IMG/VR virus record: IMGVR_UViG_3300046010_009046
Span: 1-43,757 of that record
Length of the DNA stretch: 43,757 nt
From: a virus
Reading direction: 5' to 3' (one strand)
Below the pieces are notes generated by a model. The model was not told where the DNA came from and searched no databases. It was given only the letters and a program-made list of their open reading frames with translations. Positions within the stretch are counted from its first letter, which is position 1. The number at the start of each line of letters is the position of its first letter. A program made the translations under genes and the position numbers. This document shows positions 21,016 to 43,058 of the stretch, in pieces.

Positions 21016-21064
21016 GTTGTAAAAAAACAACAGGATTGACAGGTCATATAAGTCACTTTATAAT
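21016..21064 (+). promoter_or_regulatory. A-block element and sigma70-like promoter
   Basis: GTTGTAAAAAAACAAC (21016-21031) forms a perfect five-base-pair stem with an A loop; then AGGA, TTGACA (21036), 17-base spacer, TATAAT (21059). Both hexamers are consensus. It drives the 21095 gene. Confidence 0.85.
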
Positions 21065-22731: not shown

Positions 22732-23097
22732 ATGAATGATACACTCTGGCTAATGTTGGCACTGTTTAGCAAACATTTCATTATAGATTTTCCTTTGCAG
22801 AATAGGTTTCAGTGGAGCAATAAAGGCACCTACGGACATCCGGGTGGTATTCTTCACGCAGGTCTTCATGGACTGGGAACATATCTGTGTTTTGTTTGGT
22901 ATACTCCTGTCGCGGCAATCTATTTCTTCTTAGCAGATATGTTTATCCACTATCATATTGATTGGGCCAAGATGAATTTCAACAAACGGTTAGGTTGGGG
23001 ACCAAATACGCACGAACAGTTTTGGTGGCTGTTGGGATTGGATCAATTCTTACACGCTCTTACATACATTGGATTGGTGGCATTGGTGACAACATGA
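22732..23097 (+). CDS. DUF3307-like membrane protein
   Basis: A 121-residue protein with several hydrophobic segments and conserved His, Asp and Trp residues: FSKHFIIDFPLQNRFQWSNK, GGILHAGLHGLGTYL, DMFIHYHIDWAKM and LLGLDQFLHALTYIG. This is the DUF3307 pattern (H--DF-LQ, H---H, H--ID, D---H). In bacteria and phages this family is a membrane protein of unknown function. The Hxx arrangement suggests metal binding within the membrane. Confidence 0.78.
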   Translation: MNDTLWLMLALFSKHFIIDFPLQNRFQWSNKGTYGHPGGILHAGLHGLGTYLCFVWYTPVAAIYFFLADMFIHYHIDWAKMNFNKRLGWGPNTHEQFWWLLGLDQFLHALTYIGLVALVTT

Positions 23098-23393
23098 ACG
23101 AACGAATTCAAGAATCAGATCGTAAATTACTTGAATACGCCGCGAAGGCGGCGGGTGAGTGGCCCAGCCCAGAGCCGTTTGAGCATGTACTTGCTAGGTG
23201 GAACCCCCTCACCGACGACGGCGCTGCGCTGCGGTTGGCGGTGCGCTGCGCTCAACGGTTCGGGTTCTACCGATTCATGCGGGCTTGGTTGATTGCTATG
23301 GCGACCGAACAGGGTGATCCATCCGACCCCCTTGCCGCCACCCGCCGCGCCATCACCCGTGCAGCGGCTGAGATTGGAAGGAATATGAAATGA
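23094..23393 (+). CDS. Chimera: MNERI start fused to DUF2591/NinX-like body
   Basis: A 99-residue protein. The first seven or so residues (MNERIQE) are the MNERI family start; then SDRKLLEYAAKAAG, WNPLTDDGAALRLAVRCAQR and ATRRAITRAAAEIGRNMK follow the DUF2591/NinX plan. The body DNA (about 23140-23380) is much richer in G and C than its surroundings and has CGC/GCC codons. Function unknown. It overlaps by ATGA at both ends. Confidence 0.7.
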   Translation: MNERIQESDRKLLEYAAKAAGEWPSPEPFEHVLARWNPLTDDGAALRLAVRCAQRFGFYRFMRAWLIAMATEQGDPSDPLAATRRAITRAAAEIGRNMK

Positions 23394-23740
23394 ATGAACG
23401 AATCCAAGAACTTGCTAATCAAGCAGAAGAAGTTGTATTCTATAGTCCTAGCACTGGTAAAGAAACCAAACAACTAAATTTGGAAAAATTCGCCGAATTG
23501 ATTGTTCGTGAATTGGTGTCAAAATTTGAAGTTGAAGGTAATAGTGATTATATCTACCATAACGAGGCTAACAATTGGGGTGTTATTACGATAAGACACT
23601 TCGTTGACGGCGATCCGAAACAAATGTGTGGCGAAGAGGTTCAAGCGGAGTACACCGATAAAATTTGTGGCACTGGTCGCTATCGACTGAACGAAAAGTT
23701 TGTTGAGCATCTTATGAAAGAATATTTTGGAGTTGAATGA
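23390..23740 (+). CDS. MNERI-family protein with long insertion
   Basis: A 116-residue member: MNERIQELANQAEEVVF, LEKFAELIVRELVSKF and the end LMKEYFGVE. The usual Cys after RE is replaced by Leu, and about 40 extra residues (SDYIYHNEANNWGVITIRHF onward) lie before the end. Overlaps the chimera gene by ATGA. Confidence 0.65.
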   Translation: MNERIQELANQAEEVVFYSPSTGKETKQLNLEKFAELIVRELVSKFEVEGNSDYIYHNEANNWGVITIRHFVDGDPKQMCGEEVQAEYTDKICGTGRYRLNEKFVEHLMKEYFGVE

Positions 23741-23743
23741 ATA

Positions 23744-23983
23744 ATGGAAATCAAAAAAGTTTACGCTACCAGTAGAGGTTTTTTCTGGAGCGAACAAGAA
23801 GCACTAAAGCCGAAAAATCGTGCTCGCGATAATGCTATGAGAACTGGTGGAGACGGTTACGAACCAGTGCGTGAAGCCTATGTGCTAATGGCTGACGTTG
23901 AAGTAGATCAAGGAGTGCGCGGAATCGGGACTGTTACCAAAGTTTTTAAACTAAGTGAATTGGTATGGTACGAGATTCGATGA
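23744..23983 (+). CDS. Hypothetical protein
   Basis: A 79-residue protein (MEIKKVYATSRGFFWSEQEA, then ADVEVDQGVRGIGTVTKVFK). Mixed beta; no family recognised. Its last codons overlap the next start. Confidence 0.6.
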   Translation: MEIKKVYATSRGFFWSEQEALKPKNRARDNAMRTGGDGYEPVREAYVLMADVEVDQGVRGIGTVTKVFKLSELVWYEIR

Positions 23984-24345
23984 TGAACAAACGAAGTCAA
24001 GAATCAGATCGTGAATTACTTGAATACGCTGCGAAAGCGGCTGGGCTGCGTGTTGGCTTTGAGCCAAATGGAGTAGAACGTGGACGTTACGATCTATTCT
24101 GGAGTTATGCTCATAATCAACTTTATTGGCATCACAAGACAGCAGGATCTGAATATCCTAGATTAGTTTCTTGGAACCCCCTCACCAATTCTGGTGATGC
24201 CTTTGAGTTGGCGGTTAAGTGTCTGCCATTCTACACCCTGCGCTACTCAAGAGAAGATTGGGAAGAGTGTAACGAAGATGGACTCTCCGCCACCCGCCGC
24301 GCCATCGTCAAGGCTGCGGCTGAGATTGGAAGGAATATGAAATGA
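23983..24345 (+). CDS. Second MNERI/DUF2591-type chimera
   Basis: A 120-residue protein. MNKRSQE resembles the MNERI start, followed by SDRELLEYAAKAAGLRVGFE, SWNPLTNSGDAFELAVKC and ATRRAIVKAAAEIGRNMK, the DUF2591/NinX plan. Parts of the end (24180-24340) share long DNA identity with the 23094 gene, yet the middle is AT-rich, so this copy looks older or partly replaced. ATG at 23980 is an equal start. Confidence 0.68.
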   Translation: MNKRSQESDRELLEYAAKAAGLRVGFEPNGVERGRYDLFWSYAHNQLYWHHKTAGSEYPRLVSWNPLTNSGDAFELAVKCLPFYTLRYSREDWEECNEDGLSATRRAIVKAAAEIGRNMK

Positions 24346-24437
24346 ACGAACGAATTAGAGAACTTGCTGTTGTGGCGCGAATCATTGAAAACCAATCTCA
24401 TAAAGTAGTAGATTTTTTCGAAAAGAATGTCAACTAA
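24342..24437 (+). pseudogene. Short MNERI-family remnant
   Basis: A 31-codon frame starting MNERIRELAVVARIIENQSH. It has the family start but no KFAELIVREC core and no HFGVE end. It overlaps both neighbours. Probably a truncated copy; expression as a micro-protein is possible. Confidence 0.55.
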
Positions 24438-25096: not shown

Positions 25097-25441
25097 ATGA
25101 ACTCAGTTAGCATCCGTTATAAAGATCTTCAAAAGCGCGAACTTTGTGACATTGCTCGCGCTTTGAAAATGACTAAAGTTTGTCCTGTATGTGATGGACA
25201 CGGAAAGTGGGTTGAAAAAGCAGATTGTTATTCTCTTCCCAATGGAGTAAAAGACACTCCTGAAAATCAATGGTACAAACACTTTCTCTGTTCCTGTTCT
25301 CAATGTAACGGTTGGGGATATGTCAATGAAGAGGAAGAATGTATTCATGAGTGGGAGCGAACTAAAAATCTGGGCCACTGTTTGAATTTGTGGACCTGTA
25401 TTCATTGTAAGAAAAATTGGGAAGTGGACTCTTCCGATTGA
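25097..25441 (+). CDS. DnaJ-type zinc-finger protein
   Basis: A 114-residue protein with CPVCDGHGKW and CSQCNGWGYV, which form a CxxCxGxG pair as in the DnaJ zinc centre, and a further TCIHCKKNWEVDSSD end. No J domain is present. The gene at 35600 shares the CPVC, C--C and TCIHC...DSSD plan, so these are paralogues. Likely a small RNA- or protein-binding zinc protein; function unknown. AGGAG precedes ATG. Confidence 0.7.
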   Translation: MNSVSIRYKDLQKRELCDIARALKMTKVCPVCDGHGKWVEKADCYSLPNGVKDTPENQWYKHFLCSCSQCNGWGYVNEEEECIHEWERTKNLGHCLNLWTCIHCKKNWEVDSSD

Positions 25442-33633: not shown

Positions 33634-34146
33634 ATGAAAAATCTGTACATTGACATGGATGGTGTTCTTTGCGATTTTGAAAAAAAATACTTTGAACTAT
33701 TCAATAGTACCGCAAAGGAAAATCGAAGCAATAAGCAATGGTCTTCCAATTGGACTAAATTTGTTGAACTTATGTCGTTCAAAGATTTGGATAAACACTC
33801 TGGTTGTGATCGACTTCTCAATGCTGTTCGTGAATACAAAAGTAAAGGTCTTTTGAATAGGGTTGAGATTCTTTCTTCCTCTGGTGGTGAAAAATATCAT
33901 CAAGAAGTCACAACTCAAAAAATGATTTGGCTTTTGAAAAACGGAATTGACTACAAGCCGAATATTGTTTCAGGAAGGAAACTGAAAAGGGAATGGGCCG
34001 ACGAAAATTCGATTCTCATCGATGATACCGAAGATGTAATCGATTCATTCAACGAAGCAGGCGGAATCGGTATTCTTCACAAAGATGTTGAAGTGACACT
34101 TGAGAGGCTTAAGTCTATTCTTGAAGAAAACAAAAAGGTAATCTGA
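33634..34146 (+). CDS. 5'(3')-deoxyribonucleotidase (NT5C type)
   Basis: A 170-residue HAD-fold protein. Motif I is YIDMDGVLCDFEKKYFELF (Asp7 nucleophile, Asp9 acid); ILSSSGG is motif II; the late SILIDDTEDVIDSF is motif IV. The order and the DGV-xDF start match the NT5C/deoxyribonucleotidase family, which removes phosphate from dNMPs. In phages these may balance dNTP pools or break down host nucleotides. AAAGGA precedes the ATG. It heads the MORN-like gene run. Confidence 0.8.
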   Translation: MKNLYIDMDGVLCDFEKKYFELFNSTAKENRSNKQWSSNWTKFVELMSFKDLDKHSGCDRLLNAVREYKSKGLLNRVEILSSSGGEKYHQEVTTQKMIWLLKNGIDYKPNIVSGRKLKREWADENSILIDDTEDVIDSFNEAGGIGILHKDVEVTLERLKSILEENKKVI

Positions 34147-34147
34147 A

Positions 34148-34597
34148 ATGACCAAAGAATACACAGTTAAAATTGACGATTTTGGTACCAAAGAATGGTT
34201 TCTGGACGATATGCGTCATCGGGAAGATGGTCCTGCGGTAGAATATGTTTGTGGTGACAAATTTTGGTATCTCAATGACCGTCTTCATCGGGAAGATGGT
34301 CCTGCCATTGAATTTGCTAATGGTGATATTTCATGGCATATCAAAGGTAAACGTCACCGCGAAGGTGGTCCTGCTGTAGAATGTTCTAATGGTACGAAAT
34401 ATTGGTATCTCAATGATAAACTTCACCGCGAAGATGGTCCTGCGGTAGAATTGGCTAGAGGAATCAAAGAATGGTTTATTCATGGTGTACAGTATACCGA
34501 AGAGGAATTCAATAAGAAGATGAACAAGAATTCAGGTTCTAATAAAATCGTGGAAATCGATGGAATCAAATATCGTCTAGTTCCGGTGGAGGAATAA
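34148..34597 (+). CDS. MORN-like repeat protein, four repeats
   Basis: A 149-residue protein made of 23-residue units (HREDGPAVEYVCGDKFWYLN type) at about residues 23, 46, 69 and 92 after a start MTKEYTVKIDDFGTKEWFLD. The end holds YTEEEFNKKM and VEIDGIKYRLVPVEE, shared with paralogues. MORN-like repeats form beta-hairpin solenoids and often bind membranes or proteins; this HREDGPA variant occurs in phages and bacteria with no settled role. First of eight related genes. Confidence 0.75.
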   Translation: MTKEYTVKIDDFGTKEWFLDDMRHREDGPAVEYVCGDKFWYLNDRLHREDGPAIEFANGDISWHIKGKRHREGGPAVECSNGTKYWYLNDKLHREDGPAVELARGIKEWFIHGVQYTEEEFNKKMNKNSGSNKIVEIDGIKYRLVPVEE

Positions 34598-34598
34598 G

Positions 34599-35051
34599 AT
34601 GGTAAAAGAATACACAGTTATAGTTGGTGAAGACGGTACCAAAAAATGGTTTCTGAATAATACTCTACATCGAGAAGACGGACCGGCTATTGAATATTCT
34701 AATGGTGACAAATATTGGTATATCAACGGTAAATGTCATCGAGAAGACGGTCCCGCCATTGAATATTCTAATGGCAACAAAGAATGGTTTCTCAATGGTG
34801 AGCGTCATCGGGAAGGTGGTCCTGCGGTACAATATGTTTGTGGTGGCAAATATTGGTTTCTCAATGGCAAATTACATCGGGAAGACGGTCCCGCCATTGA
34901 ATATTCTAATGGCGGCAAATCGTGGTATCTTCATGGTGAGCGATATACCGAAGAAGAATTCAATGAGAAAATGAAGAACAAGAATTCAGGTTCTAATAAA
35001 ATCGTGGAAATCGATGGAGTTAAGTATAAGCTAACTCCGGTGGAGGAATAA
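34599..35051 (+). CDS. MORN-like repeat protein, four repeats
   Basis: A 150-residue paralogue starting one base after the previous stop, with GGAGG in the end of the gene before. Start MVKEYTVIVGEDGTKKWFLN, four HREDGPA units, end VEIDGVKYKLTPVEE. Long DNA stretches match the 34148 gene, such as the segment coding NKNSGSNKIVEIDG. Confidence 0.75.
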   Translation: MVKEYTVIVGEDGTKKWFLNNTLHREDGPAIEYSNGDKYWYINGKCHREDGPAIEYSNGNKEWFLNGERHREGGPAVQYVCGGKYWFLNGKLHREDGPAIEYSNGGKSWYLHGERYTEEEFNEKMKNKNSGSNKIVEIDGVKYKLTPVEE

Positions 35052-35052
35052 A

Positions 35053-35493
35053 ATGGTAAGAGAATATACAGTTATCGTAAGAACGGACGGTACTAAAGAG
35101 TGGTATGATGAGAGCAAGCTACACCGGGAGGATGGACCTGCTGTAGAGCATGCTGATGGAGCAATGTTCTGGTATCGAAATGGTAAACGTCATCGGGAGG
35201 ACGGTCCAGCTTGCGAGTGGTCTGATGGTAGTAAATCCTGGTATCTTAATGGCGTAGAATATACCGAAAAAGAGTTTAACAGGAGAACAATGAATTCAGG
35301 TTCCAACAAAACTCTTTTTCAACAACGAATTGAAAAACTTGCAAAACAAGCCATCGTACCATTCAAAGACGAGAATGATATTGTTTGCTATCATTTCTCC
35401 AAAGAAATATTCGCTGAGTTGATTGTACGAGAATGTTCTCCGTTGGCATATGATGGCCCCAGAGGTATTTTGGAACATTTCGGATTGCGTTAG
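35053..35493 (+). CDS. Fusion: two MORN-like repeats plus MNERI-family body
   Basis: A 146-residue protein. Residues 1-80 are a short MORN-like part (MVREYTVIVRTDGTKEWYDE, two HREDGPA units, GVEYTEKEFN). After a NSGSNK linker, residues about 90-146 are a MNERI-type protein: QQRIEKLAKQAI, KEIFAELIVRECSPLAY and ILEHFGLR. The two accessory families are joined in one reading frame. Whether the fusion acts as one protein is unknown. Confidence 0.72.
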   Translation: MVREYTVIVRTDGTKEWYDESKLHREDGPAVEHADGAMFWYRNGKRHREDGPACEWSDGSKSWYLNGVEYTEKEFNRRTMNSGSNKTLFQQRIEKLAKQAIVPFKDENDIVCYHFSKEIFAELIVRECSPLAYDGPRGILEHFGLR

Positions 35494-35516
35494 ATAATCT
35501 TGGTGATCGCCGGGTG

Positions 35517-35564
35517 TCGTAAAAAAGCAACAGGGTTGACATAGAACTTCAACTGCTATAAACT
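35517..35564 (+). promoter_or_regulatory. A-block element and promoter
   Basis: GTCGTAAAAAAGCAAC (35517-35532), AGGG, TTGACA (35536). The -10 is TATAAA with 15-base spacing or TAAACT with 17. Drives 35600. Confidence 0.75.
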
Positions 35565-35599
35565 TCGATGGTGTTGAAGTTAAAGATCAAGGAATCATT

Positions 35600-35905
35600 A
35601 TGAATAAAGTCGAATGCGTCTGTCCCGTCTGCAATGGAACGAAAAGGATGCCCACTCCCGATCATCTGCGAAAATATGCAGAAGCATATGGATGGTATGG
35701 CTATCAAAAAGACGATGATTGCTGCACCTGTACGAATTGTGGTGGTCAGACAATGTACGGAGAAGCAACAGGAAAAAGCTTTCTTCGAAGTGATGGAATT
35801 ACACCTTGTACTCATGAATACAAAATAGAAAGTCGAGGAAGGTGTTATACCGTTTATACTTGTATTCATTGTGAGTACAGTTATGGAATCGACAGTTCTG
35901 ATTAA
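35600..35905 (+). CDS. Zinc-finger protein, paralogue of the 25097 gene
   Basis: A 101-residue protein with CVCPVCNGTKRMPTP, CCTCTNCGGQTMYG and the end YTCIHCEYSYGIDSSD. The CPVCNGT and TCIHC...DSSD parts match 25097, while the spacing differs. Probably binds two zinc ions. Function unknown. Confidence 0.7.
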   Translation: MNKVECVCPVCNGTKRMPTPDHLRKYAEAYGWYGYQKDDDCCTCTNCGGQTMYGEATGKSFLRSDGITPCTHEYKIESRGRCYTVYTCIHCEYSYGIDSSD

Positions 35906-35929
35906 TTGAGCTAATACGGGAATAAAAAC

Positions 35930-36463
35930 ATGGTAAAAGAATACACAGTTAAAATTGACGATGATGGTACCAAAGAATGGTTTCTGGACGATATGCGTCA
36001 TCGGGAAGATGGTCCTGCGGTAGAATATGTTTGTGGTGACAAATATTGGTTTCTGAATAATATTCTACATCGAGAAGATGGTCCTGCTATGGAATTTGCT
36101 AGTGGTGACGAATTTTGGTATTTTAATGGAAAGCGCCACCGCGAAGATGGTCCTGCTATCGAATATGCTGATGGCGAGAAATTCTGGTTTCTTCATGGCG
36201 AGCGTCATCGGGAAGACGGTCCTGCATTAGAATATGCTAATGGTGACAAATATTGGTATCTCAATGGCCTTCTTCACCGCAAAGATGGCCCTGCGGTAGA
36301 ATATGCTGATGGCGGCAAAGAATGGTATCTCAATGGCGTAGAATATACCGAAGAGCAATTCAATGCCAAAACTTGTTCTTGTGCATTTACGGTAATTGAC
36401 GGAGTCCAATATAAATTGACTGAAATTGATGGTATCAGATATCGTCTAGTTCCTGTGTCGTAG
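35930..36463 (+). CDS. MORN-like repeat protein, five repeats
   Basis: A 177-residue paralogue. Its first ~110 bases are nearly the same as those of 34148 and 38223. Five units (the last HRKDGPA), YTEEQFN and an end with two related copies, VIDGVQYKLTEIDGIRYRLV. TAG of the stop lies in the next A-block. Confidence 0.75.
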   Translation: MVKEYTVKIDDDGTKEWFLDDMRHREDGPAVEYVCGDKYWFLNNILHREDGPAMEFASGDEFWYFNGKRHREDGPAIEYADGEKFWFLHGERHREDGPALEYANGDKYWYLNGLLHRKDGPAVEYADGGKEWYLNGVEYTEEQFNAKTCSCAFTVIDGVQYKLTEIDGIRYRLVPVS

Positions 36464-36508
36464 CAAAAAAACAACAGACTTGACTCAAGCCTCTGTTGGC
36501 GCTATACT
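36460..36508 (+). promoter_or_regulatory. A-block element and sigma70-like promoter
   Basis: GTAGCAAAAAAACAAC (36460-36475), AGAC, TTGACT (36480), 17-base spacer, TATACT (36503). The block contains the upstream stop codon. Drives 36549. Confidence 0.85.
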
Positions 36509-36548
36509 TTCTCTATCGTGATCGAAACAAGAGAATGGAGCAAAGAAG

Positions 36549-36782
36549 ATGGGTTTTGAAAAGAAAGTTCTGAATCTGGTCAAAAAAGTCACCGACACTC
36601 CTGCCTATTTCTATGAAGGAACGTTGTTTCTTTCAACCATCGATGGAGAAGAAGCGGCAGATGTTTACAACGAAATCTACACTTTGATTACTCCATGCGT
36701 AACTTACATAAAAGTAGGAGATGAGATTGCCTTTGATTTTGTTACTAATTATCAAAAGCCTCCTCTCTCAAAGAGAAAGTGA
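36549..36782 (+). CDS. Hypothetical protein
   Basis: A 77-residue protein with ATGGAGC upstream (MGFEKKVLNLVKKVTDTPAY; EAADVYNEIYTLITPCVTYI). No family recognised. Own promoter. Confidence 0.6.
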   Translation: MGFEKKVLNLVKKVTDTPAYFYEGTLFLSTIDGEEAADVYNEIYTLITPCVTYIKVGDEIAFDFVTNYQKPPLSKRK

Positions 36783-36785
36783 AAA

Positions 36786-37031
36786 ATGACTGAAAAAAGT
36801 GTAGTTAAGACTGATCATCTGACTGGAAATATCCGATATCGTAATCAGCGTAGGTGGTTTGGTTCTGACATGCTGGTACTACAGGTAGAGGTCAAGCGTG
36901 ATGACGGTCCGCCAGATTATCATGATATGCCCATGTATCTGGGTGGTCTTGTTTGGCGTGATGCCATTGTCGAGGATCTACTTGAACTTGGCCTCATTCA
37001 GCGTATGAACAGTGAGACTGGAAGAAAGTGA
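36786..37031 (+). CDS. Hypothetical protein sharing its start with 37035
   Basis: An 81-residue protein. The first 11 residues (MTEKSVVKTDH, then LTG) and the preceding bases equal those of the 37035 gene over about 45 bases; the rest is different (YRNQRRWFGSDMLVLQVEVK; DDGPPDYHDMPMYLGGLVWR). No family recognised. Confidence 0.6.
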   Translation: MTEKSVVKTDHLTGNIRYRNQRRWFGSDMLVLQVEVKRDDGPPDYHDMPMYLGGLVWRDAIVEDLLELGLIQRMNSETGRK

Positions 37032-37034
37032 AAA

Positions 37035-37610
37035 ATGACTGAAAAAAGTGTAGTTAAGACTGATCATCTTGGCACTAAACGTTGGTTTCTCAATGGCAAA
37101 TTACATCGGGAAGATGGTCCTGCGGTAGAATATATTGGTGGTGACAAATTCTGGTATCTCAATGACCGTCTTCATCGGGAAGACGGTCCCGCCATTGAAT
37201 ACGCTGATGGTACCAAATATTGGTATATCAATGGCAAACGTCATCGGGAAGACGGTCCTGCGGTAGAATGGGCTGATGGCGACAAAATGTGGTATCTTCA
37301 TGGTGAACGATATACCGAAGAAGAATTCAATGAGAAAACAAAAGGAAATCGAAACATGATTAGTTTTAAAGAAAATCGTAATTCTCTTAAAAACCTTCAA
37401 GTTACCATTGATGCCTTGGAAACCATCGATAATTTGATTTCTTACTATGAAGATAAACTTCTAGGTCGAGCGTTTATTCAAATTCGTAATACACTGGTGG
37501 GCGAACCTATTCTTCAACTTGACGCTAAAATTATGGTAAATGCTCTGAAAGCTCAAAAACAAGTTATAGCCGATCATTTGGCTAGTCTTGGAATTGACGT
37601 AAACTCTTAA
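37035..37610 (+). CDS. MORN-like protein fused to an unrelated helical part
   Basis: A 191-residue protein: MTEKSVVKTDHLGT start, three HREDGPA units, YTEEEFNEKT, then from about residue 108 MISFKENRNSLKNLQVTIDA and helices to the end (ALKAQKQVIADHLASLGIDV). The Met at 37356 has AGGA upstream, so the helical part may once have been, or may still be, a separate gene. Confidence 0.68.
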   Translation: MTEKSVVKTDHLGTKRWFLNGKLHREDGPAVEYIGGDKFWYLNDRLHREDGPAIEYADGTKYWYINGKRHREDGPAVEWADGDKMWYLHGERYTEEEFNEKTKGNRNMISFKENRNSLKNLQVTIDALETIDNLISYYEDKLLGRAFIQIRNTLVGEPILQLDAKIMVNALKAQKQVIADHLASLGIDVNS

Positions 37611-37621
37611 GAGATAAAAGC

Positions 37622-38140
37622 ATGGTAAAAGAATACACAGTTATAGTTGATGAAGACGGTACCAAAAAATGGTTTCTGGACGATATGCGTCACCGCGAAG
37701 ATGGTCCTGCTATAGAATATTCTAATGGTACCAAAGCATGGTATCTCAATGATAAACGTCATCGGGAAGACGGTCCTGCGGTGGAATATGCTAGTGGCGG
37801 CAAAGAATGGTTTCTCAATGATAAACTTCACCGCGAAGATGGTCCTGCATTAGAATTTGCTCATGGCGGCAAAGAATGGTTTCTCAATGATAAACTTCAC
37901 CGCGAAGACGGTCCTGCGGTAGAATATTCTAATGGCGACAAAGAATGGTATCTCAATGGCAAACGTCATCGGGAAGGTGGTCCCGCCATTGAATATGCTG
38001 ATGGCGGCAAAGAATGGTATCTCAATGGTGTGCAATACACTGAAGAGAAATTCAATGAGAAAATGAACAAAAATACTTGTTCCGGTAAAATCGTGGTAGA
38101 AATTGATGGAATCAAATATCGTCTAGTTCCTTTGGTGTAG
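37622..38140 (+). CDS. MORN-like repeat protein, five repeats
   Basis: A 172-residue paralogue: MVKEYTVIVDEDGTKKWFLD, five units, two of them neighbouring and almost identical (KEWFLNDKLHREDGPA), VQYTEEKFN and end VEIDGIKYRLVPLV. The TAG stop lies in the next A-block. Confidence 0.75.
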   Translation: MVKEYTVIVDEDGTKKWFLDDMRHREDGPAIEYSNGTKAWYLNDKRHREDGPAVEYASGGKEWFLNDKLHREDGPALEFAHGGKEWFLNDKLHREDGPAVEYSNGDKEWYLNGKRHREGGPAIEYADGGKEWYLNGVQYTEEKFNEKMNKNTCSGKIVVEIDGIKYRLVPLV

Positions 38141-38185
38141 CAAAAAAACAACAGACTTGACACGAATCTCTGTTGGCGCTATAGT
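38137..38185 (+). promoter_or_regulatory. A-block element and sigma70-like promoter
   Basis: GTAGCAAAAAAACAAC (38137-38152), AGAC, TTGACA (38157), 17-base spacer, TATAGT (38180). The leader then has four CAC-like triplets and AAGGAAA. Drives 38223. Confidence 0.85.
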
Positions 38186-38222
38186 TACGTCATCGAACAC
38201 CACCACCACCAAGGAAAAAAAC

Positions 38223-38624
38223 ATGACCAAAGAATACACAGTTAAAATTGACGATGATGGTACCAAAGAATGGTTTCTGGACGATATGCGTCATCGGGAA
38301 GACGGTCCTGCGGTGGAATATTCTAATGGCGGCAAATATTGGTATCTCAATGATAAACTTCACCGCGAAGATGGTCCTGCGGTAGAATGGGCTAATGGTG
38401 ACAAATATTGGTATTTCAATGGCGAGTATTGGTATCAGAATGGCCTTCTTCACCGCGAAGATGGTCCTGCGGTAGAATTGACTGATGGAACTAAACGTTG
38501 GTATCTCGATGGTGAACGATATACCGAAGAAGAATTCAACGAGAAAATGAAGAACAAGAATTCATGTTCTGATAAAATCGTGGTAGAAATCGACGGGGTT
38601 AAGTATAAACTGACTCCGGTATAG
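38223..38624 (+). CDS. MORN-like repeat protein, three repeats with a slipped unit
   Basis: A 133-residue paralogue starting at ATG 38223 behind AAGGAAA. Units at MRHRED, KLHRED and LLHRED; between the last two the WY-NG part is doubled (YWYFNGEYWYQNGLLHRED), an in-frame slip of seven residues. End VEIDGVKYKLTPV. Confidence 0.75.
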   Translation: MTKEYTVKIDDDGTKEWFLDDMRHREDGPAVEYSNGGKYWYLNDKLHREDGPAVEWANGDKYWYFNGEYWYQNGLLHREDGPAVELTDGTKRWYLDGERYTEEEFNEKMKNKNSCSDKIVVEIDGVKYKLTPV

Positions 38625-38628
38625 TGTC

Positions 38629-38677
38629 GTAGCAAAAAAACAACAGACTTGACACGAATCTCCATTGGCGCTATAGT
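38629..38677 (+). promoter_or_regulatory. A-block element and sigma70-like promoter
   Basis: GTAGCAAAAAAACAAC (38629-38644), AGAC, TTGACA (38649), 17-base spacer, TATAGT (38672). Nearly a copy of the unit at 38137. Drives 38713. Confidence 0.85.
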
Positions 38678-38712
38678 TACGTCATCGAACAAAAAGAATC
38701 AAGGAAAAAAAC

Positions 38713-38964
38713 ATGACCAAACGAATCGAAGAACTTGTTGAGAAATTCGCCCAAGATTTTTTCAATCGATCAGTAGTTGACTTGCGAAAATATGAACCTT
38801 TCCTTGAAGAAAGTCGAATTTTCGCCGAAACGATTGTGAAAGAATGTATGGGTATCTGTATCAATATTCAAGAAAATCATATTCAAGAATTTGGTGATTA
38901 TCTTGGAAATACCTATGCTGTTATCTGTCGTGATGCGATCAAAGAATATTTCGAAGTCGAGTAG
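38713..38964 (+). CDS. Diverged MNERI-family protein
   Basis: An 83-residue protein with AAGGAAA before ATG. MTKRIEELVEKFAQDFFNRS, SRIFAETIVKECMGICINIQ and end AIKEYFEVE follow the family plan with several changes (FAETIVKEC; YFEVE). It has its own promoter. Confidence 0.65.
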   Translation: MTKRIEELVEKFAQDFFNRSVVDLRKYEPFLEESRIFAETIVKECMGICINIQENHIQEFGDYLGNTYAVICRDAIKEYFEVE

Positions 38965-38971
38965 AATAAAC

Positions 38972-39121
38972 ATGGTAAAAGAATATACGGTTAAAATTGA
39001 CGGGTTTAACACTAAACGGTGGTATCAGAATGGCCTTCTTCACCGCGAAGGTGGTCCTGCCATTGAATGTTCTAATGTCATCGAACAAAACCACCACCAC
39101 CACCACCACCACACGGTATGA
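38972..39121 (+). CDS. Truncated MORN-like gene ending in a His run
   Basis: A 49-residue protein. MVKEYTVKIDGFNTKRWYQN and one unit (LLHREGGPAIECSN) are followed by VIEQN, seven His and TV. The bases from 39076 (GTCATCGAACAAAACCACCA) resemble the leaders after the promoters at 38157 and 38649, so the gene body seems to be fused into a former leader by deletion. The repeats and the usual VEIDG end are lost. Confidence 0.65.
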   Translation: MVKEYTVKIDGFNTKRWYQNGLLHREGGPAIECSNVIEQNHHHHHHHTV

Positions 39122-42964: not shown

Positions 42965-43058
42965 TACAAGCAGCGCCGGAAAGCGTAACCGGCAACGGCT
43001 GTGTACTACTCCTGATTTGTGGAGACTACAAGCAGCGCCGGAAAGCGTAACCGGCAAC
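42965..43058 (+). repeat. Two direct copies of a 32-base hairpin repeat
   Basis: Identical copies at 42965-42996 and 43027-43058, separated by 30 bases. Each holds GCCGG AAAGCGTAA CCGGC, a five-pair stem with nine-base loop. The spacer has its own small hairpin (ACTCC/GGAG). No third copy and no protein link seen. Confidence 0.9.

Follow-up and report, generated by a model that had tools for sequence, protein, structure and literature searches.

Why should a single phage carry eight neighbouring genes for small proteins built from one and the same repeat, and against what might such proteins be directed? The question is posed by positions 34148-39121 of IMG/VR virus record IMGVR_UViG_3300046010_009046, the window analysed here being the whole of that record (43,757 bases), which is classed as linear and hence is possibly a fragment. 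Eight genes, all on the + strand, carry 4, 4, 2, 5, 3, 5, 3 and 1 copies, 27 in total, of a unit of 23 residues (69 bases) bearing the signature HRE[D/G]GPA. We put at about one half the probability that they encode non-virion, probably early, MORN-like binding proteins kept variable by recombination in conflict with host proteins. The gene content of the window, including DNA primase, NrdA, a ThyX-like protein (recognised by eye) and the virion structural protein phrog_1645 (with relatives in cyanophage and Puniceispirillum phage), points to a tailed phage from an aquatic setting, probably a T4-like one.

The repeat genes and their fold

An earlier, sequence-only reading of this DNA had reported the eight paralogues, and both their open reading frames (ORFs) and their unit counts were reproduced here; the period of 69 was also recovered independently by Tandem Repeats Finder. 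The genes, with one shared start that concerns gene 5, are as follows.

34148..34597, + strand: gene 1, with N-cap, 4 units, helical C-cap and tail KIVEIDGIKYRLVPV
34599..35051, + strand: gene 2, with 4 units, caps and tail as in gene 1
35053..35493, + strand: gene 3, with 2 units joined to an 'ELAxQA...FAELIVREC...FGxx' domain
35930..36463, + strand: gene 4, with 5 units and a doubled tail motif VIDGVQYKLTEIDGIRYRLVPVS
36774..36820, + strand: 47-bp start of ORF 36786, 100% identical to 37023-37069, the start of gene 5
37035..37610, + strand: gene 5, with 3 units, a start in common with ORF 36786 and a different C-terminal domain
37622..38140, + strand: gene 6, with 5 units; its protein was used for the structure model
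38223..38624, + strand: gene 7, with 3 units, the second followed by an insertion of 7 residues (FNGEYWYQNG)
38972..39121, + strand: gene 8, of 49 amino acids, with 1 unit followed by out-of-family sequence and a poly-His end from (CAC)n

Alignment of 26 units from the window yields the pattern GxKxWxxNGxxHRxDGPA. The near-identical starts and ends described earlier are present in some genes but not in gene 3, which has its own C-terminus, nor in gene 5, where both the start and the C-terminus are its own. Similarly, the near identity of single units in DNA applies to a few pairs (95.7% for units 1.1 and 5.1, 92.8% for 6.2 and 7.1), the mean pairwise identity being 72%. The C-terminal domain of gene 3, modelled with a predicted local distance difference test score (pLDDT) of about 90, belongs to a family present in multiple copies elsewhere in the window phage. 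Gene 8 breaks off after the first half of its unit ('IECSN') and the DNA then runs on as GTCATCGAACA, a leader found, at 38190 and 38682, 3' of the promoters at 38157 and 38649; the gene is a truncated remnant, its joint to GTCATCGAACA having apparently arisen by deletion. The cluster is interrupted by four other ORFs, at 35600-35905, 36549-36782, 36786-37031 and 38713-38964.

The suggestion that these proteins are MORN-like was borne out by structure prediction for the gene 6 protein. Its AlphaFold2 model (mean pLDDT 91.8) has a repeated strand pattern and a C-terminal helix, and the best Foldseek matches among solved PDB structures are MORN1 of T. brucei, T. gondii and P. falciparum (E 2e-6 to 5e-6, probability 1.0; one at E 1.8e-6 with a template modelling (TM) score of 0.46), followed by radial-spoke MORN proteins, junctophilin-2 and SET7/9. 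The single-layer extended antiparallel sheet of MORN repeat proteins is thus found in the predicted model, and their period of about 23 residues in the window units. Among viral models in BFVD, the nearest to gene 6 are proteins of uncultured Caudovirales, Mimivirus R871 and other giant-virus proteins, with HREDGPA-like or MORN-repeat proteins of Powai lake megavirus and Harvfovirus also among the closest. A Foldseek search with the model of the gene 3 fusion returned nothing.

Sequence profiles present a different picture of the family. The canonical MORN motif is YxGxWxxGxxHGxG, from which the window unit departs, and no window protein matches Pfam MORN at the gathering score. MORN_2 (PF07661), a MORN variant of bacteria with units of about the same length, is matched by one of 15 member proteins (E 0.0027). 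DUF6745 (PF20530) is reached by 14 of the 15 at E <=0.01, some of them above the gathering score (genes 4 and 6, with 29.4 and 29.5 bits against a gathering value of 27, covering 25-40 of 206 profile positions). What it shares with the phage unit is the same short stretch around HxxDGPA and the next hairpin; it differs in being a domain of unknown function whose profile, matched over about 18-40 of its 206 positions, was not built as a repeat. Scans of PHROGs, NCBIfam and PADLOC assigned no real family to the array proteins, the sole match to PADLOC anti-phage defence profiles being at chance level (E 0.066), and a sequence search of the PDB found no solved structure. The unit is without a curated family. 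In the literature searched, the string HREDGPA occurs in no paper and DUF6745 is named in none; the kind of protein is known from its MORN-like fold, but phage arrays of it that diversify combinatorially appear to be undescribed there.

Comparison with eukaryotic MORN proteins (MORN1, radial-spoke head, junctophilin and SET7/9) shows the same period of roughly 23 residues, the same extended antiparallel sheet and key residues in a similar W..G..H order. In the phage proteins, however, the turn is one residue longer (W-x-x-N-G-x-x-H), H-R-E-D-G-P-A replaces H-G-x-G, Pfam MORN profiles miss the units and the genes are organised as diversifying arrays. MORN2 expansions in Fusobacterium represent paralogous growth of MORN-variant proteins in one bacterium; those proteins are cellular, unlike the phage array, and the likeness is one of description.

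Recombination and selection

A DNA alignment of the repeats, proposed earlier as a check for conversion tracts, revealed long stretches of identity between genes. The longest exact matches between different window genes measure 80, 74, 55, 45 and 43 bp, gene 4 sharing its exact 80 bp with gene 1 and its exact 74 bp with gene 7. As a null we used 60 synonymous-codon shuffles that left all proteins unchanged: these gave a mean longest match of 13.7 bp (largest 44), never more than one 40-bp tract in any shuffle, and an average of 0.03 matches of at least 40 bp, compared with the five observed. DNA identity between the genes consequently goes beyond both chance and protein similarity. Linkage (r2) between synonymous sites of the window, calculated from few site pairs, declines from 0.40 at up to 6 bp through 0.18 at 7-20 bp to 0.07 at longer distances, which is what chance alone would give. 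One or two codons are enough to bring site linkage down to about chance, whereas simulated trees without recombination keep r2 values of 0.34-0.48. Such decay fits a combination of gene conversion and crossing-over inside units.

That repeat number varies by recombination, as the sequence-only reading had expected, is borne out for the family by pairs of near-identical viral contigs which differ in units, in genes and in order. L020 and L024 are one 69-bp unit apart within flanks 99.85-99.90% identical over 20.6 kb; L208 and L315 have 9 and 6 units (flanks 99.4-99.96%), unit 7 of L208 being an exact copy of its unit 2; L323 and L325 differ by one entire four-unit gene; and L376 and L384 carry 2 and 4 units beside a flank of 99.0%. 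The most instructive pair is L207/L214, in which 6,273 of 6,277 upstream bases (99.94%) and all 61 downstream are identical, as against 612 of 675 (91%) in the repeat gene. Their 9 and 8 units are reshuffled with one unit insertion or deletion, and 33 codon changes are nonsynonymous versus 15 synonymous, 18 of the 33 falling at unit positions 8, 10 and 16. The residue at a given position mostly keeps one codon, and it follows that old alleles have been reshuffled. Since L214 and L215/L340, which come from two metagenomes, agree at 99.97% over 7,009 bp including the repeat gene, assembly error is less likely there.

Diversification is thereby supported for the family; for the window phage it rests on comparison of its own paralogues, because no close relative was found. 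Searches among viral contigs with the NT5C-like gene at 33634 and ORF 32739 yielded none, and a search of phage DNA gave only short 70% matches, to Celeribacter phage P12053L. None of 80 loci with the ThyX-like gene had an HREDGPA unit in the flanks fetched, a weak result given that the array lies 24 kb away.

Selection was assessed in 34 arrays comprising 708 units. H1, G5, P6 and A7 are invariant throughout, and R2 and W17 nearly so. Variable positions (8, 10, 11, 14, 16, 18, 19, 22 and 23) were chosen on the 24 older arrays, and the test was run on the remaining 10, which are younger; there the proportions of differing nonsynonymous (pN) and synonymous (pS) sites at these positions are 0.357 and 0.171. 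The ratio of nonsynonymous divergence at variable positions to synonymous divergence at all codons (dN/dS) is 1.99 (bootstrap 95% confidence interval 1.74-2.30) and is at least 1.3 in all 10 young arrays. At scaffold positions pN/pS is 0.06, showing these residues to be under strong purifying selection; across the family, therefore, the copies are not decaying neutrally. Of the two outcomes named earlier as refuting the reading, a constant repeat number and order in all related phages and purely neutral decay, neither is thus seen in the family. Positions 8/10 and 14/16/18 alternate with the conserved 7, 9, 15 and 17, which suggests that these variable positions would lie on one face of the predicted sheet, although a strand break at W17 in the model makes this less certain.

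Distribution, fusions and possible function

Two profile scans of viral contigs gave at least 558 and at least 508 confirmed stretches, from which 140 loci were taken, a redundant set picked for high score. Two or more HREDGPA genes are found in 103 of the 140, with up to 23 in 20 kb. In the 128.5-kb record L252, the genes responsible for 90 matches are scattered over the entire record; the 402-kb record L229 has 67 matches, and its 23 genes in 20 kb carry a 62-residue N-terminal domain. Recombination is a main source of new combinations in a family that recurs widely in phages. Caps tend to be contig-specific. Two C-terminal tails, both short, come up repeatedly: (C)xGKIVEIDGKKYKL and LTLDEIAxKFGVxVxxLKIKK. 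In the loci fetched they are almost confined to HREDGPA proteins (45 versus 1 and 51 versus 2), practically none occurring on other proteins. Bacterial genomes have a single HREDGPA gene in 55 of 77 loci; by eye, beta-proteobacterial neighbours resemble conjugative elements, and some homologues are on plasmids. The only named phages with homologues by tblastn, and the sources of the closest named phage proteins, are Celeribacter phage P12053L (one match) and Agrobacterium phage Atu_ph07 (six in 490 kb), with no comparable array described in either. One study of marine viral DNA reports a 37-fold higher frequency of MORN repeats in long reads than in assembled sequence (PMC9238414), in agreement with a loss of such genes during assembly.

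Units are also found joined to other domains. L285 has them in frame with DUF3310 (E 7.8e-21) and with the MazG nucleotide pyrophosphohydrolase (E 3.6e-9), and fusion to the FAELIVREC domain arose twice independently, once in window gene 3 and once in L236. The DUF3310/MazG fusions are located as follows.

L285:1871-2284, DUF3310/MazG fusion
L285:2946-3692, DUF3310/MazG fusion
L302:9986-10645, DUF3310/MazG fusion, assigned by sequence likeness only

As predicted proteins, these show the unit array to be a free-standing module that tolerates fusion to other domains. In L002 gene 6 (L002:2394-3053), the array appears to have grown into a gene for the ribonucleotide reductase small subunit: by eye, the first 65 residues resemble the N-terminus of NrdB, and Pfam makes no call.

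On the interpretation we prefer, the eight genes would be a tandem family whose products are small MORN-like repeat proteins that do not belong to the virion. Every 23-residue unit would lend strands to a single extended sheet, built by the fixed residues (H-R-x-D-G-P-A, E9, G13, K15, W17, N20 and G21), and positions 8, 10, 11, 14, 16, 18, 19, 22 and 23 would provide most of the surface accessible to a partner. Unequal crossing-over, gene conversion and deletion between units and between genes would alter unit number, recombine existing residues, swap ends and fuse units to adjacent domains, selection preserving the scaffold and favouring replacements at the variable positions. Most probably the proteins would serve as a set of binders acting inside the cell, holding or blocking host proteins, with defence proteins among the candidates. 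No N-terminal hydrophobic segment is apparent by eye in the array proteins, which lie among small accessory ORFs and not beside virion genes; their placement would make a surface structure, one of the targets first proposed, less likely. We infer a non-virion role, protein binding inside the cell and host proteins as partners.

Several observations weigh against this interpretation. TM-scores to MORN structures are just 0.3-0.5; values in this range can arise with long twisted sheets. The low linkage could come in part from recurrent substitution under selection, repeats can be misjoined by short-read assembly, and about a dozen other near-identical contig pairs are unchanged, so that turnover is not always fast. 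In the window alone the ratio at variable sites is 0.87 with pS 0.43, the dN/dS excess coming from other contigs; the window figure is uninformative because its synonymous sites are near saturation. Finally, homologues also occur singly in bacterial chromosomes, plasmids, loci like conjugative elements and giant eukaryotic viruses, and the fold is for that reason not specific to phage-host conflict.

The main rival, unlikely in our view yet deserving of serious weight, is that the units are a phage-internal adaptor which gathers phage enzymes or other phage proteins, each paralogue having its own phage partner. The in-frame fusions to MazG, DUF3310 and, twice independently, the FAELIVREC domain speak for it, as do the two nearly exclusive tails, but internal partners should change slowly, and L207/L214 show a local excess of change of about 150-fold, while dN/dS is about 2 in young arrays; change at this pace fits an external partner better than a phage-internal one. 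It seems improbable that the arrays are a mechanistic by-product, a recombination-prone unit that expands and contracts by itself to leave proteins of little or no function. Frequent unit insertions and deletions, the truncated gene 8 and what could be chance fusions (genes 3 and 5, and the NrdB-like N-terminus seen by eye in L002) would be expected of such a process, but constrained scaffolds with dN/dS about 2 at variable sites in young arrays do not resemble neutral decay, and reading frames are open over most matches in 17 records.

Less probable still is a role as immunity or antitoxin proteins that shield phage or host from polymorphic toxins. YwqK-type antitoxins are MORN_2 proteins, and tandem immunity paralogues could give a similar picture. 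The ywqJ-ywqK genes form a toxin-antitoxin pair (PMC8321402). The phage array differs from these in that MORN_2 is reached by a single member (E about 0.003) and that inspection of the window ORFs recognised no toxin gene adjoining the array; bacterial neighbours resemble, by eye, relaxase, methylase and helix-turn-helix genes, not toxins, and the accessible part of a polymorphic-toxin review does not mention MORN. That the differences between contigs are artefacts of short-read assembly over repeats we consider very improbable. A 69-bp period with exact self-matches of up to 82-127 bp is difficult for short reads, and the long-read enrichment cited above points the same way, but misassembly leaves unexplained both the dN/dS of about 2 and the reshuffling with one codon per residue, besides the agreement of L214 with L215/L340. 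Least probable is a diversity-generating retroelement or other targeted mutagenesis as the source of variation, as might be supposed from the concentration of changes at set unit positions. Changes occur at all bases, not only at A, and linked synonymous states in L207/L214 (CAC CGG AAA versus CAT CGT GAA) move jointly, as in allele reshuffling; no ORF with a YxDD motif was found in L207 or L215, which are short contigs. This candidate was dropped on the codon evidence for reshuffling of existing alleles.

A broader proposal, which we advance tentatively, is that phages of many kinds may keep libraries of MORN-like binders encoded by tandem genes. Recombination among the units would exchange the exposed residues and give a phage population many combinations with which to meet host proteins that change, on the same principle as the repertoires of ankyrin or leucine-rich repeats found in other parasites and in immune systems. 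An uncurated and widespread phage family becomes testable in this way, having a constrained scaffold and variable residues that change by recombination, under apparent positive selection, in phages that are nearly identical elsewhere. Were the partners host proteins, the arrays would mark host factors that phages must track, possibly unknown defence proteins, and their small single-sheet binders would make up a natural library.

Promoter cassettes and other features of the window

Early expression of the array is inferred from sigma-70-like cassettes within it.

36460..36508, + strand: A-rich block and sigma-70-like promoter TTGACT-17-TATACT, after gene 4
38137..38185, + strand: matching promoter cassette TTGACA-17-TATAGT, before gene 7
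38629..38677, + strand: matching promoter cassette, after gene 7

The intergenic cassette GTAGCAAAAAAACAACAGACTTGACA occurs on the + strand at 21016, 36460, 38137, 38629, 40408, 40747, 41435, 42508 and 43174, with TATA-like boxes about 17 bp past each; these are probably strong phage promoters spread across the accessory region.

The FAELIVREC family is a second expanded family, 'MNERIxELAxQA...FAELIVREC...IKEHFGVEE', with about ten copies on the + strand (22104, 22528, 23390, 24342, 28361, 28955, 29725, 29970, 30969 and 38713); the two copies scanned have no Pfam match. The paralogues at 25097-25441 and 35600-35905 have CxxC pairs (CPVC...CxxC...CIHC) and a common C-terminus, and are possibly small zinc-binding proteins. 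Another duplicated family, 'RxQESDRxLLEYAAKAAG', is found at 23094-23416 and 23983-24368, both ends being 88-90% alike in DNA. An Rfam scan found no RNA in the window. Two copies of caagcagcgccggaaagcgtaaccggcaac lie about 61 bp apart at 42968-43058, where no gene is obvious. Near the structural genes, an internal stretch of the longer protein encoded at 4083-4700 matches phrog_353 (toxin, E 7.7e-11).

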